Virus record (IMG/VR): IMGVR_UViG_3300047094_001064
Span: 1-64,000 of that record
Source of the DNA: a virus
Length of the DNA stretch: 64,000 nucleotides
Strand: one strand, 5' to 3'
The notes beneath the pieces are model-generated. The model was not told the DNA's origin. It saw nothing but the letters and a program-made list of their open reading frames with translations, and did no database searches. Shown here in pieces: positions 3,952 through 8,396 of the stretch. The position numbers were made by a program, and so were the translations under genes. The number at the start of each line of letters is the position of its first letter. Position 1 is the first letter of the stretch.

Positions 3952-3974
3952 GTGGCCAGAAATGGCCACTATTT
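3952..3974 (+). terminator. Rho-independent terminator after gp32
   Basis: The stem GTGGCCA (3952-3958) with loop GAAA and complement TGGCCAC (3963-3969) is followed by TATTT. It lies between the gp32 stop and the stop of the convergent gene on the minus strand. The GC-rich stem with a tetraloop is conspicuous in AT-rich DNA. The U tract is short, and efficiency on the minus strand is doubtful. Confidence 0.7.
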
Positions 3975-5541
3975 AAACTGCTAAACTTGTTCCTATATTT
4001 CTAAAAGACCTATCATAATTATCTACTTCCATAGGAAAAGAAACTGAACTATTTTGATTTTGAGTTGACACATTATTGGTAGGAGCTATAACCATATTGT
4101 TGGCTGCTTCTTTCTCTTTCTTAGCCATATTTCTTTCTTTACTCAACTGATTAACACTATTTGCTTCCTGTTGTGACATAGGTAAGAAACGTTTATCAGG
4201 TATAAAATCTGGTCTAGGTGGTATTATTTTCTTCTCATTGTCATATGATTTAATAAAATCTTCTCTAGGTTCAGTCTTTATATCTTTAAAATTAGATGAA
4301 TCTTCTCTATCTACTTTAGAAGGTTCTTTATCCATTTTCAATTTGTCTTGTTCTGTTACATTTTTATTAGGATCTTTTTCAAGTTTCTTTGTATCATCAC
4401 CAAATAACCAACTAAATTTAGATTTTATCCAATCAGCTAATTTACTAATGGCCATAATAACACCTACTACTGCTAATCCTATTAATATAAATTTGGCTGA
4501 GGCCATTAATCCTGCTATAGCGAATCTACCTAAAACCATTGCACCTTTGGTTAATCCTGAACCTAATGAAGATAATCCTTTACCCAATAATGATATACCA
4601 TTTTTTGTTAAATTGCCTAATGATGAGGTTAAACTACCAATTTCTTTACCCATTGATTTAAAATAAACAAATAACTCTTTTGGTGCTTGTAATCCTTGTA
4701 ACATTTGATCTTTAGCACCACGTAATGTTTCTACAATAGGACCACCAGCGTAATTAGTTTGACCAGGTTTAACTCCTACTAAATCTTTTCTTTGTTGTAA
4801 TTTTTCTTCAGCTTTAATTATTAATTGGCGTCTGTTTAATATTTTTTTATTATCATCATCACTTAAAGTATTTTGTCTTAATAATCTTTGTTCTTCTCTT
4901 AAAAATTGTTCTTTTCTTCTCTCTAATTGTTTTTCTTGTTCTCTAATAGATATTTTTTCTTGTTTTTCTTCTTTTAATGTTCTAATTTTTAATTGTAAAT
5001 TTTCTTTATCTACATAGGTGTTAATATTATTTTGTTGTAATAAGACTCTTTCAGTCTCTAATTGAGATATCTTTTCTTCTCTTATTTGTTTTTCTTCAGC
5101 ACGTTTTTGTTTTTTTTCTTCTAATGCCTTTTCTAATTTACTAATACTTTCATTTAATTCTTTACTAAAGTTTTTTAAATTAACTCCAAATTTTTGTTGT
5201 AGTGTATCTATAATGTCTAATGCTTTTTGGTCATCATCTTCTCTATTAGTTTTTAATAATTCACCGATTTTATATAACTCATTTTCAATACTAGGAACTA
5301 TAGCTTTAGTAGCAGTTACAACTGTTGTTTGAACTTTTTGAACTATTGTTTGTGTAATGTTTCTAAGTGATTTTGTAAGTGTTTCAGTGCCTAAAGGACC
5401 ACCGGTAGACTGTTCAGTATAATCTTTTACAGCTCTTAGAAAAGAAGCCTTTTTCATTAAGTCGCCTCTACCCATACCCATTTCTTCAGGTCTAACACCT
5501 AATGCTAGTGATGTTGAATCGTCTATGAAATCTTTGGCCAT
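3973..5541 (-). CDS. Coiled-coil and membrane-segment protein, candidate virion/tape-measure type
   Basis: This 522-residue protein has a polar N-terminus, a long charged coiled coil at about residues 125-255 rich in E, K, R and Q, a glycine/serine-rich stretch, a strong hydrophobic segment at about 335-368 (FAIAGLMASAKFILIGLAVV within it) and a low-complexity acidic/polar C-terminus. A helical rod followed by hydrophobic helices is typical of tail tape-measure proteins, and no other protein in the window looks like one; T4 gp29 is of similar size (590 residues). Against this, it sits at the end of the operon right behind the holin, where a lysis or membrane role is possible. It starts 3 bases after the holin stop. 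I make no firm functional call. Confidence 0.55.
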   Translation of the reverse strand: MAKDFIDDSTSLALGVRPEEMGMGRGDLMKKASFLRAVKDYTEQSTGGPLGTETLTKSLRNITQTIVQKVQTTVVTATKAIVPSIENELYKIGELLKTNREDDDQKALDIIDTLQQKFGVNLKNFSKELNESISKLEKALEEKKQKRAEEKQIREEKISQLETERVLLQQNNINTYVDKENLQLKIRTLKEEKQEKISIREQEKQLERRKEQFLREEQRLLRQNTLSDDDNKKILNRRQLIIKAEEKLQQRKDLVGVKPGQTNYAGGPIVETLRGAKDQMLQGLQAPKELFVYFKSMGKEIGSLTSSLGNLTKNGISLLGKGLSSLGSGLTKGAMVLGRFAIAGLMASAKFILIGLAVVGVIMAISKLADWIKSKFSWLFGDDTKKLEKDPNKNVTEQDKLKMDKEPSKVDREDSSNFKDIKTEPREDFIKSYDNEKKIIPPRPDFIPDKRFLPMSQQEANSVNQLSKERNMAKKEKEAANNMVIAPTNNVSTQNQNSSVSFPMEVDNYDRSFRNIGTSLAV

Positions 5542-5544
5542 TTA

Positions 5545-5844
5545 TTAGCCTATCTGTTCTTCTTCTATTTTTTTGGCTTCTAACTTTTTAGTTTCAATCT
5601 TTTCTTGTGTTCTACCATATGCTGATATACCTAATACAGCTCCCATACAAATATGAAAGAAACCAGCACCTTGTAATGTAAGTGGCATCCATTGTGTAAA
5701 TACAATATTCTTTAAATAGGTTGCTTGTGCTAAATTCCATAGTACAGGAAATATAACAAAATCAAATGCACAAACAGCCAGATATAACCAACCCATTGCT
5801 GGACGCCATTTAGTATTAAAATTCGATTCTTTTTGATTATTCAT
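5545..5844 (-). CDS. Holin, GTA_holin_3TM type
   Basis: This 99-residue protein opens with KWRPAMGWLYLAVCAFDFV, matching the 'RWRP..GW.Y...C.FDF' signature I know from the three-helix holin family named after gene-transfer-agent release (PF11351). Hydrophobic segments lie at about 18-37 and 57-76, with a shorter amphipathic stretch between, and the C-terminus is a charged, lysine/glutamate-rich tail. Such holins permeabilise the inner membrane at the end of infection. No endolysin gene is recognisable beside it. A late-promoter box lies only five bases upstream of the ATG and no Shine-Dalgarno is visible, so the late transcript may be leaderless. Confidence 0.75.
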   Translation of the reverse strand: MNNQKESNFNTKWRPAMGWLYLAVCAFDFVIFPVLWNLAQATYLKNIVFTQWMPLTLQGAGFFHICMGAVLGISAYGRTQEKIETKKLEAKKIEEEQIG

Positions 5845-5849
5845 AATAC

Positions 5850-5857
5850 TATTTATA
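5850..5857 (-). promoter_or_regulatory. Late promoter box for the holin gene
   Basis: The minus strand reads TATAAATA here, followed by five bases and then the holin ATG (5844). With a T4-type start site about six bases past the box, transcription would begin at or next to the start codon. Confidence 0.6.
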
Positions 5858-6512
5858 TAGATAAACCTTTTTTTCTTATAGCTACTTGCACATTATTAGG
5901 TATATTAATCACATCTAATCTAGCCCAATTACAATGAATAAATGTATCTACAGCTAGTCTAGGAGTCAAACCTATATCATTACTTACATCTATTAATTTA
6001 AAATCGTAACTATATTTCCAAAACGTTGCATCATCTATTAACAATATACCACCAGAGTTTAATAGATTAAATGATAATGTTAAATCTTCCAACACCTTAT
6101 ATGAACGATGGTGACCATCTATGTAAATCAAATCAAATTTTTTATTTTCATTATACAATTTATTTAATACATTAAAAGATATATCTTTATGAAATGTTAT
6201 CTTATTCTTATAATCACATTTAGACAAATTATTTTTCCATTTACTTTCTATATCATCAAAATATGATTGTTCTACACCATAATTGATACCTTTAAATGGA
6301 TCTATTGTATGTAATTCAAAATGTTCGTGCTTACCTAATTGTTCTGCAATCCATAATGAATAAAAACCTTCAAATGTTCCTATTTCCAATATTTTATTAG
6401 GTATAAGAACCTTATCAAATATGTACTGTGAATTATCTATTGCAGATGGAGACCAGTTTTCACTAAAGGTATATTTACTTATTGGCTTGTGATTGTTCAC
6501 GCTGTCTTTCAT
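5853..6512 (-). CDS. Class I SAM-dependent methyltransferase (Methyltransf_24-like)
   Basis: This 219-residue protein carries the class I methyltransferase order: motif I ILEIGTFEGF (41-50) for SAM binding, an acidic strand end LHTIDPF (68-73), FDLIYIDGHHRSY (126-138), and LLNSGGILLIDDATF (150-164). IDGHH plus the late IDD is typical of the Methyltransf_24/cephalosporin-hydroxylase-like group that methylates small molecules or sugars. The substrate is unknown; in this operon it may modify a virion or surface component. The ATG has a good AAGGAAG site and lies inside the frameshift extension of gp26 (38-base overlap). Confidence 0.75.
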   Translation of the reverse strand: MKDSVNNHKPISKYTFSENWSPSAIDNSQYIFDKVLIPNKILEIGTFEGFYSLWIAEQLGKHEHFELHTIDPFKGINYGVEQSYFDDIESKWKNNLSKCDYKNKITFHKDISFNVLNKLYNENKKFDLIYIDGHHRSYKVLEDLTLSFNLLNSGGILLIDDATFWKYSYDFKLIDVSNDIGLTPRLAVDTFIHCNWARLDVINIPNNVQVAIRKKGLSI

Positions 6513-6669
6513 TTTCTTCCTTAATATAAGTCACTAATAATGAAACGTATATATCCCTCTCCCAAGGTAACATACTTTCTATTTCAGTCAATGAATATTT
6601 GTGATGCTGCATTAAGGCAAAATTAGTTTCGAAGTAGGCCTCTAGGCTACTGTGGGCGAGGCCAATTCG
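6475..6669 (-). CDS. gp26 -1 frameshift extension (tail-assembly chaperone-like)
   Basis: A second open frame runs off the 3' end of gp26 in the -1 frame and ends at the TAA at 6475-6477. The last 45 codons from an internal ATG (6612) read MQHHKYSLTEIESMLPWERD and then a charged helix with KEENERQREQ; the stretch just upstream is LEAYFETNFAL. The slippery heptamer T TTT TTC (6675-6669, in the correct codon phase) lies just before the gp26 stop. A -1 shift there joins gp26 residues 1-237 to a 64-residue tail, giving about 301 residues. Independent translation from 6612 is the alternative, but no Shine-Dalgarno precedes that ATG. The arrangement parallels the lambda G/GT assembly-chaperone pair. 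Confidence 0.7.
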   Translation of the reverse strand, partial: RIGLAHSSLEAYFETNFALMQHHKYSLTEIESMLPWERDIYVSLLVTYIKEENERQREQSQANK

Positions 6670-7379
6670 AAAAAATCTGCAATGCCAGATAAAGTTACTT
6701 TACTTACAACACCTGTTTTTGGATTAGTAACTTCAATTTCTTTTTGAAGTTTGGGCATGGTGTCAAAGAACTTTCTTATCTTATTGAATGCATCTTGAGG
6801 TAAATATTCTATGAACTCTTTTAATTCTTCGTTAGATGTATCCTTTGAAGGATAAATTTTATCACCTTCAAATATATGATCTATGCAATCAATCAAAATA
6901 GCAAATATAGATTCAACTTGTAAATTATCTGTACCTTTACCTATATCGTAATTTTTAAGTGTAGGATATTTCAATACAAGTCCTAAATTCTTTTTATCAT
7001 CTATTACAATTTTATTTGTATGACTATCATCTACATGCACTTCAACTTTAGTTAAATCAACTTCTGTTTCAGCATATGTTATTCCATCATCAGGACATAT
7101 TGTTCTAAATTTAACAATTTCTGCTACTGATTTTGCTCTGATATTTAAAAAAATATATTCAATATCAAATATTGGTAACTTATCTACCTTTAATGTATTA
7201 AATGTACAAGCATCAACAATTTCTTTTAATGCTGATACCATTTGTTTATTGTCACCTGTTTCCAGGGCAATGTATAATATCTTTTCTTCTTTAACTAGAA
7301 AAGGTCTGTATTTGATTTTTTTATCTTCTGATGGTAACGTCAATTCATACGTAGGCACATCAACTCTTGGCAACGCCAT
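6642..7379 (-). CDS. 26: Baseplate hub assembly protein gp26 (T4_baseplate family)
   Basis: This 245-residue protein begins LPRVDVPTYELTLPSEDKKI, then KYRPFLVKEEKILYIALE, VDKLPIFDIEYIFLNIRAKS and a DDG-containing loop. This is the pattern of the T4 gp26-type baseplate family (PF12322). In T4, gp26 is needed for assembly of the central hub. A clear AAGGAG lies upstream of the ATG, and a variant late box (AATAAATA, 7407-7414) sits 27 bases upstream. The 3' end carries the -1 slippery heptamer described separately, eight codons before the TAG, so two products are expected. Confidence 0.85.
   Translation of the reverse strand: MALPRVDVPTYELTLPSEDKKIKYRPFLVKEEKILYIALETGDNKQMVSALKEIVDACTFNTLKVDKLPIFDIEYIFLNIRAKSVAEIVKFRTICPDDGITYAETEVDLTKVEVHVDDSHTNKIVIDDKKNLGLVLKYPTLKNYDIGKGTDNLQVESIFAILIDCIDHIFEGDKIYPSKDTSNEELKEFIEYLPQDAFNKIRKFFDTMPKLQKEIEVTNPKTGVVSKVTLSGIADFFELASPTVA
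6669..6675 (-). promoter_or_regulatory. -1 ribosomal frameshift slippery site
   Basis: On the minus strand the gp26 frame reads GAT TTT TTC GAA, so the heptamer T-TTT-TTC has the X-XXY-YYZ phase required for simultaneous -1 slippage. Downstream the -1 frame stays open for 64 codons past the gp26 stop and encodes a plausible protein domain. I see no strong pseudoknot immediately 3'. Confidence 0.6.
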
Positions 7380-7406
7380 AATTATCTCCTTATTATATAA
7401 TATTAC

Positions 7407-7414
7407 TATTTATT
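7407..7414 (-). promoter_or_regulatory. Variant late promoter box for gp26
   Basis: The minus strand reads AATAAATA, one base from TATAAATA, 27 bases upstream of the gp26 ATG and followed by an AAGGAG ribosome site. It overlaps the gp54 stop codon. Confidence 0.4.
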
Positions 7415-8396
7415 ATAGATTTAATGGCGGTAAATTACCAAATGGAGGAAACACTCTACCACCTGTAACACCACCGATTGGTATACGTCTTTTAATACCT
7501 TCTAATACTTGTGTTCCAGCTCTACGTAATTCTGGTGGTAATCTATTCATTAATCCACCAAAAGCACCATAACTACTTTTTACATCTACATTTCTGAAGT
7601 TTGGTTCACCTAATGCAATAGTACCAGAACGATCTAAGAAATAATTTACCCAATATCTAAATGTAAATGTAACGTTAAACGTTGTTATAGTATCAGTATC
7701 AGCATATGCATAGTCAACAACTCCTATTGTCTTAGGGAAACAATCAAATAATTTTACAGCATATGTTACATCATCTCTCTCTGCCTTACTAGCATAACTT
7801 CCTAATTGAAATATGTTTATATCAGATACATAGTTATCATAAAAATTAAAGTTATGAGATTGAGTACTAAACGCAGCTGCTTGCCACGTTTCAAAGTATG
7901 ATCTTTCTCTTAAAAATTTATCACTATAGAATGTTGCTGTTATATCAGCTGATTTATAATCATATGCAATTTTACGAGCTGGACCTGCAGTTTTAACTTC
8001 TAACGTTTGTATATCTCTATCTGGCATAGATATTGCATTACAAAAAGCATTTACTCTTTTAGCATTTGAATTTTGAATAGGTATTAGATCGCTTTGTTTT
8101 TTAAATGTTTGTAATGTTTCTTCTGCACTTAAAGACGGTTCGCTTAAATCATCACCTAAAACAATTGGTTGTGCGCCTTTTGGTAAATAAAACTCTACAT
8201 AAAATCTTGCCTTACGAGCAAATCCTTCTGCCTCATTAACATATGAGTGCATTCTACCCATTGTAGTTTCTTTTTGAGGTCCTTGAGGTCGTCTAAATCT
8301 TTTATCGTTTTCTACATTGTCTAATGAACGATCACGTGGCAATCCTAATCTTACATCAAATCCACCAATACGAACTCCACCTCTTAAAATAGCCAT
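7413..8396 (-). CDS. 54: Baseplate tail-tube initiator gp54
   Basis: This 327-residue protein matches the gp54 group, which caps the baseplate hub together with gp48 and starts tail-tube polymerisation. Recognisable parts are the N-terminal glycine-rich lead, FYVEFYLPKG, the tube-protein-like core CNAISMPDRDIQTLEVKT, then YKSADITATFYSD, and the strand ITTFNVTFTFRYWVNYF, which parallels ITTFDVTFAYRVM in T4 gp54. The C-terminus is proline/glycine-rich. The gene overlaps the preceding stop by one base, so it is coupled to the 183-residue protein. gp26 and gp4 in the same operon and gp48 divergently next door support a hub/tube-junction role. Confidence 0.8.
   Translation of the reverse strand: MAILRGGVRIGGFDVRLGLPRDRSLDNVENDKRFRRPQGPQKETTMGRMHSYVNEAEGFARKARFYVEFYLPKGAQPIVLGDDLSEPSLSAEETLQTFKKQSDLIPIQNSNAKRVNAFCNAISMPDRDIQTLEVKTAGPARKIAYDYKSADITATFYSDKFLRERSYFETWQAAAFSTQSHNFNFYDNYVSDINIFQLGSYASKAERDDVTYAVKLFDCFPKTIGVVDYAYADTDTITTFNVTFTFRYWVNYFLDRSGTIALGEPNFRNVDVKSSYGAFGGLMNRLPPELRRAGTQVLEGIKRRIPIGGVTGGRVFPPFGNLPPLNL

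Follow-up and report, generated by a model that had tools for sequence, protein, structure and literature searches.

The gp26 locus of an uncultured T4-like marine virus, represented by a window of 64,000 bases out of the 65,139-base IMG/VR record IMGVR_UViG_3300047094_001064, very probably encodes a tail assembly chaperone (TAC) of the lambda G/GT type, in which -1 frameshifting near the end of the gene would yield, beside the short form (TAC-N), a longer form (TAC-NC) with an additional C-terminal domain (TAC-C). The frameshift signal, as read from the sequence, is very strongly supported, and with it go an intact coding extension and a homology of the two parts to T4 gp26 and gp51. The concept of a frameshifting TAC in T4-like phages is already known and the window virus adds another case to it; the stem-loop and the exclusion of start codons described below are supporting detail.

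The short form, gp26 of 245 residues, is encoded on the minus strand (6642..7379), as are all features of the window described below. It starts with ATG 7379, preceded by a strong Shine-Dalgarno sequence, AAGGAG (7386..7391), and ends with TAG 6644-6642. It matches PF12322 (T4_baseplate; E 1e-61, 208.9 bits against a curated cut-off of 24.5) as well as the baseplate hub family phrog_150 (E 1.5e-68), and it is the sole PF12322 copy in the whole 65,139-base record. The slippery heptamer TTTTTTC, the -1 shift site (6669..6675), is read from 6675 to 6669 in the phase T TTT TTC, so placed that its two Phe codons specify residues 236-237 of gp26; eight sense codons then precede the stop. Translation in the -1 frame gives FF-RIGLAHSSLEAYFETNFALMQHHKYSLTEIESMLPWERDIYVSLLVTYIKEENERQREQSQANK up to a stop of its own, TAA 6477-6475, with 64 further codons after Phe-Phe (TAC-C, 6475..6669), and hence a fusion of 237 + 64 = 301 residues. 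The first in-frame ATG of the extension (6610..6612) lacks a Shine-Dalgarno sequence and would yield only a 45-residue C-terminal piece. The original prediction for this DNA had described a correctly phased T-TTT-TTC eight codons ahead of the gp26 stop, a -1 frame open for 64 codons, a 301-residue fusion and an internal ATG without a ribosome site; on rereading of the sequence all of these, and all its coordinates for gp26, the heptamer and the -1 frame, proved correct.

Taken by itself the heptamer is unremarkable, because such sequences are common in the AT-rich window: about 208 in-frame XXXYYYZ heptamers occur in its 19,214 codons (1 per 92), and 3 of its 36 Phe-Phe pairs are encoded as T TTT TTC. 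Statistics drawn from the window only were rejected as proof, a single heptamer near a stop not being significant in an AT-rich genome. The same abundance could be taken to mean that the heptamer is a by-product of a conserved Phe-Phe pair and AT-rich codon usage, with the extension a decayed remnant, and the FF pair does belong to the protein family, being found in T4 gp26 also. Whether there is more to it than chance was decided by a comparison with relatives, which the original prediction had proposed as a check on the conservation of the heptamer. Among 180 complete related gp26 loci gathered from IMG/VR and from named phages, 178 carry an in-frame TTTTTTN close to the gp26 stop, mostly 3 or 10 codons before it (168 TTTTTTC, 8 TTTTTTT, 1 TTTTTTG and 1 TTTTTTA). 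The bearers include window-like marine viruses, cyanophages, pelagiphages, KVP40, EniLVp02, Aeh1, pf16, rhizobial phages and others, and conservation over such a set of sequences is far beyond chance.

The first of the two exceptions, Stenotrophomonas phage IME-SM1, has one T fewer than the 15 other matching Stenotrophomonas records. In alignments the difference is a 1-base indel just before position 1930 (the Mendera sequence was read for comparison), and with this T missing the annotated gp26 becomes longer and the extension falls into the +1/-2 frame. A +1/-2 frameshift in this phage was considered and rejected, since its run is one T short of that in all 15 other records; the short run is probably a homopolymer sequencing error. 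The second exception is Klebsiella phage KpS110, a distant member of the Ackermannviridae. In the -1 frame of its gp26 homologue a stretch resembling the extension can be read (ISELMPWHLDMLTETLKARL, at about 1950-2170), but a standard slippery heptamer is lacking.

At the codon level, 132 distinct complete alleles could be compared. The codon preceding the first Phe is NNT in 132/132 and the first Phe is TTT in 132/132, while the second is TTC in 122/132; codons just upstream of the slip show synonymous variation at about the background level. In the 59 AT-type loci TTC stands at the slip in 55, as against 10% of the Phe codons elsewhere in gp26. Since the alleles are related, the counts do not amount to independent trials; kinship is, however, allowed for by the contrast with the neighbouring codons. 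In these sequences exactly three codons, those of the slip site, are frozen at synonymous positions. A conserved Phe-Phe pair in an AT-rich gene would leave unexplained why the rarer Phe codon, TTC, is fixed at the second position and why the preceding codon always ends in T; moreover, T4-type phages that bear FF and have a separate gp51 lack the heptamer, and none of the complete alleles has a broken extension. The notion of a by-product is already contradicted by the codon data and is hardly credible. It is also worth mentioning that a conserved Ser at the tenth codon before the slip (~30 nucleotides upstream) is AGT in 103/111 alleles, far above the background of synonymous conservation.

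The -1 frame is open for 55-74 codons in all the complete alleles, and the domain that it encodes is conserved across 49 representatives. The extension matches phrog_634, "baseplate hub assembly catalyst" (E 3.5e-30), and aligns by hhalign with the C-terminus of T4 gp51 (E 1.9e-5); a Pfam search with it returned no family above the cut-off. The coherent domain claimed for this frame in the original prediction is upheld by the phrog_634 match and by its conservation. What had been missed there is that the extension is the protein that annotators already call gp51, a "baseplate hub assembly catalyst".

This identity brings in an alternative, in which the extension would be a small gene in its own right, gp51, translated either from an internal start codon or by ribosomes that re-initiate behind the gp26 stop. 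A short gp51 is indeed annotated as a gene of its own in S-SM1, P-SSM2, KVP40, Mosig and HTVC008M, and an ATG that overlaps the gp26 stop (TAATG/TGATG) in KVP40, EniLVp02 and Mendera could permit re-initiation. However, in 90 of the 132 distinct alleles the -1 frame contains no ATG, GTG or TTG between the point where it opens and the twelfth codon after the slip. In the remaining alleles the candidate starts have a Shine-Dalgarno match of at most 4 bases, as compared with 5-7 bases for gp26 starts in 67/128, so that the search of relatives for a clear independent start, also suggested in the original prediction, came out in favour of a fusion. In the window, ATG 6612 falls inside the conserved domain of the extension. 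Re-initiation would leave the frozen heptamer unexplained, the KVP40-type phages keeping the heptamer too, and T4 gp51 is itself, by its sequence, a fusion of a PF12322 domain and the extension that is functional in that form. A separate gene is rejected because the start codons are missing, and must be considered very improbable. In most of the single-gene records examined the short gp51 is called from a start codon that is probably unused, or is omitted. Two records, Aeh1 and AsFcp_2, possess the heptamer and, just behind the gp26 stop, an extension that is not annotated.

The fusion form predicted for the window virus has a counterpart in T4. T4 gp26 and T4 gp51 both match PF12322 (E 9e-64 and 4e-52, respectively), and since the C-terminus of gp51 aligns with the extension, gp51 is a gp26-like domain and the extension joined in one gene, the fused form being functional in T4. 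The two T4 proteins belong to the same families as gp26 and the extension of the window virus; the difference is that T4 encodes the short and the long form as two genes, 26 and 51, which have diverged, and that its gene 26 has no slippery heptamer. The same holds for other genomes with a separate gp51: at the gp26 C-terminus the heptamer is found in 0/8 of them (T4, KARL-1, SFHK24, phiP4-3, Aeromonas 31, PEi26, ZHF and RB43), with Phe-Phe retained as TTC TTT in T4 and PEi26 (T4 gp26 ends in EFFELL). These genomes serve as a natural control. Table 2 of PMC3004832 counts both T4 gp26 and T4 gp51 among the hub assembly chaperones, and according to the same paper the final particle contains no gp51. 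Sullivan et al. in 2010 noted that cyanophage gp51 is about 20% of the length and that Aeh1 has none (PMC3037559). Both observations would be explained by the fact that the part missing from the short cyanophage gp51 corresponds to gp26, joined to it by frameshifting, and that the Aeh1 extension is merely unannotated.

Downstream of the heptamer lies a stem-loop (6637..6663), probably a frameshift stimulator, which had been overlooked in the original prediction. GGCCTC (6663-6658) pairs with GAGGCC (6642-6637) around a 15-nucleotide loop; the stem begins 5 nucleotides past the heptamer in the window, the heptamer-to-stem spacing being 5-6 nucleotides. A 50-nucleotide fold of the window has a minimum free energy of -12.2 kcal/mol (z -2.23, 200 dinucleotide shuffles). 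The stem core GCCTC/GAGGC is retained in 49-50 of the 50 distinct window-like alleles, also where the stop lies upstream of the stem, and the Glu codon of the right arm is GAG in 50/50, compared with about 22% of the gp26 Glu codons. The folding energy is unusual solely at +9 (mean z -2.2, with about 48% of alleles below -2; -0.4 to +0.1 elsewhere), and this signal is common to window-like and other clades. The latter have different stems, somewhat shifted in register, and G-C pairs are exchanged for C-G in the clade of locus L126. A single consensus RNA structure for all clades was sought and given up, as RNAalifold gave no common fold when the non-window clades were pooled; the stems are clade-specific. 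About 7 nucleotides upstream of the slip, a Shine-Dalgarno-like stretch occurs in 68% of alleles versus 0-39% at control positions, a signal caused in part by an invariant Gly codon.

The T6 run at the slip site also admits transcriptional slippage, in which the RNA polymerase would gain or lose a base in the run and some mRNAs would encode the fusion in one frame. Transcriptional slippage is known in some AT-rich genomes; runs of six are, on the other hand, short for it to be efficient. The run is almost always closed by C and not lengthened to T7 or beyond, despite the AT-rich codon usage (168 TTTTTTC versus 8 TTTTTTT among the heptamers counted above), and a stem-loop at a spacing of 5-6 nucleotides is the classical ribosomal signal. 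Slippage by the polymerase is accordingly even less probable than a separate gp51 gene.

With -1 frameshifting by the ribosome, most ribosomes would finish at the gp26 stop and produce the short form. A minority would be delayed at T TTT TTC by the downstream stem-loop and would slip back by one base in tandem, tRNA-Phe re-pairing from TTT/TTC to TTT/TTT; having bypassed the stop, these ribosomes would produce the 301-residue TAC-NC with its C-terminal three-helix domain. The ratio of the short to the long form would be set by the efficiency of slippage. Slippage itself and its rate are inferred, and so are the client of the chaperone and the functions of its two forms. By analogy with lambda gpG/gpGT, the tape measure protein would be coated by the short form, made in excess, and subunits of the tail tube or hub would be recruited or linked to it by the long form, made in the minority. 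The slippery site of lambda, G GGA AAG, differs from the poly-T site of the window virus. Lambda gpG belongs to a protein family unlike that of gp26 and is smaller than the T4-like short form, which has 208-282 residues in the genomes read. The lambda chaperone serves the tape measure protein, and neither of its forms is found in the mature virion (PMC5009743).

Predicted structures point in the same direction. An AlphaFold2 model of gp26 (predicted local distance difference test score, pLDDT, 86) has as its top match among solved structures the HK97 tail assembly chaperone 2ob9, with Z 7.9 over 83/107 residues, the next chain reaching 4.7. The match spans residues 1-85 of gp26 only, at 6% identity, and gp26 differs from the HK97 protein in carrying a further beta-rich part; on this model a TAC-N fold of gp26 is moderately supported. 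The extension is modelled as three helices (pLDDT 84). When solved structures were searched by sequence, neither of the two alignments used found relatives.

Several observations weigh against a frameshifting chaperone in the window virus. Foldseek by itself ranks 2ob9 weakly (E 5.6), a Z of 7.9 is too low for a fold match to be safe by itself, and a Foldseek search of the PDB with the model of the extension gave no significant match. The z-score of the window fold is only -0.97 when 65 nucleotides are folded, and within the window's own clade the stem is invariant and not covarying. The Shine-Dalgarno-like upstream element is absent in the window; for this reason, and because it is partly an effect of the invariant Gly in relatives, a stimulator of this kind is not claimed for the window virus. 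Nevertheless, the -1 frameshift put forward in the original prediction is supported by the conserved heptamer and by the missing starts in relatives, and its analogy with lambda G/GT by the gene order, by the structural match of gp26 to the HK97 chaperone and by the extension at the end of T4 gp51.

In one respect that prediction has to be corrected, as it had taken frameshifting not to be an established feature of T4 gp26. In the abstract of the 2022 paper by Vladimirov and colleagues, frameshifting is reportedly described as conserved in several T4-like groups, with genes 26 and 51 as the pair employed by T4. As far as the paper is cited by others (PMC10885494, PMC12846349), the TAC genes of T4-like phages were recognised by Vladimirov, Gautam & Davidson (Virology 2022, 566:9-15), and the inference made there for TAC-N/TAC-NC of T4-like phages would be the same as the present one. 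Poly-T -1 slippery sites in T4-like TAC-N genes are mentioned with reference to it (PMC12846349), and so is the presence, in some T4-like phages, of a short gene beside a longer one for the fusion, in place of frameshifting (PMC10885494). G-T frameshifting has elsewhere been described as conserved "except T4" (PMC5009743), a statement that is qualified by the frameshift signal of T4-like phages. With a slight preference over the contrary, it can be proposed that a three-part cassette of T4-like phages, consisting of an optional Shine-Dalgarno-like element ~7 nucleotides upstream, T TTT TTC, and a stem-loop of fixed position but of sequence and register varying with the clade, is the ancestral control of the TAC ratio, and that the T4 lineage replaced the cassette by gene duplication, losing the heptamer. 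Parts of this proposal may already be contained in the 2022 paper. If true, T4-like phages would constitute a natural series for the replacement of recoding by duplication.

The surroundings of gp26 resemble those of G/GT chaperone genes. Directly upstream lies a gene for a gp54-like tail tube initiator (7413..8396; phrog_45 tail tube, E 9e-36), then follow gp26 with the extension, small genes and, two genes downstream, a probable tape measure protein of 522 residues (3973..5541), which is the candidate client. The latter was assigned by its position, its character and synteny with HTVC008M, where an annotated tape measure gene stands at the equivalent place. Its N-terminal half is charged and it has one very hydrophobic segment near residue 351; it gave no PHROG match and no significant Pfam match. 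Its homologues follow the extension in 49/66 long loci. The gp26/extension locus would accordingly lie between a tail tube gene and a tape measure gene, as in G/GT chaperones.

Between the extension and a small membrane gene there is a methyltransferase-like gene (5853-6512; PF13578, E 5e-19), whose ATG falls within the final codons of the extension. Of the 66 long relatives, solely the four closest have it, and in view of this narrow distribution it was probably inserted recently between the chaperone and the tape measure gene. The membrane gene itself encodes a protein of 99 residues (5545-5844) with matches to GTA_holin_3TM (PF11351, E 8e-7) and to phrog_3427, holin. A holin-like membrane gene is found near the extension in 42 of the 66 long loci, an unusual site for a holin, between the chaperone and the probable tape measure gene.
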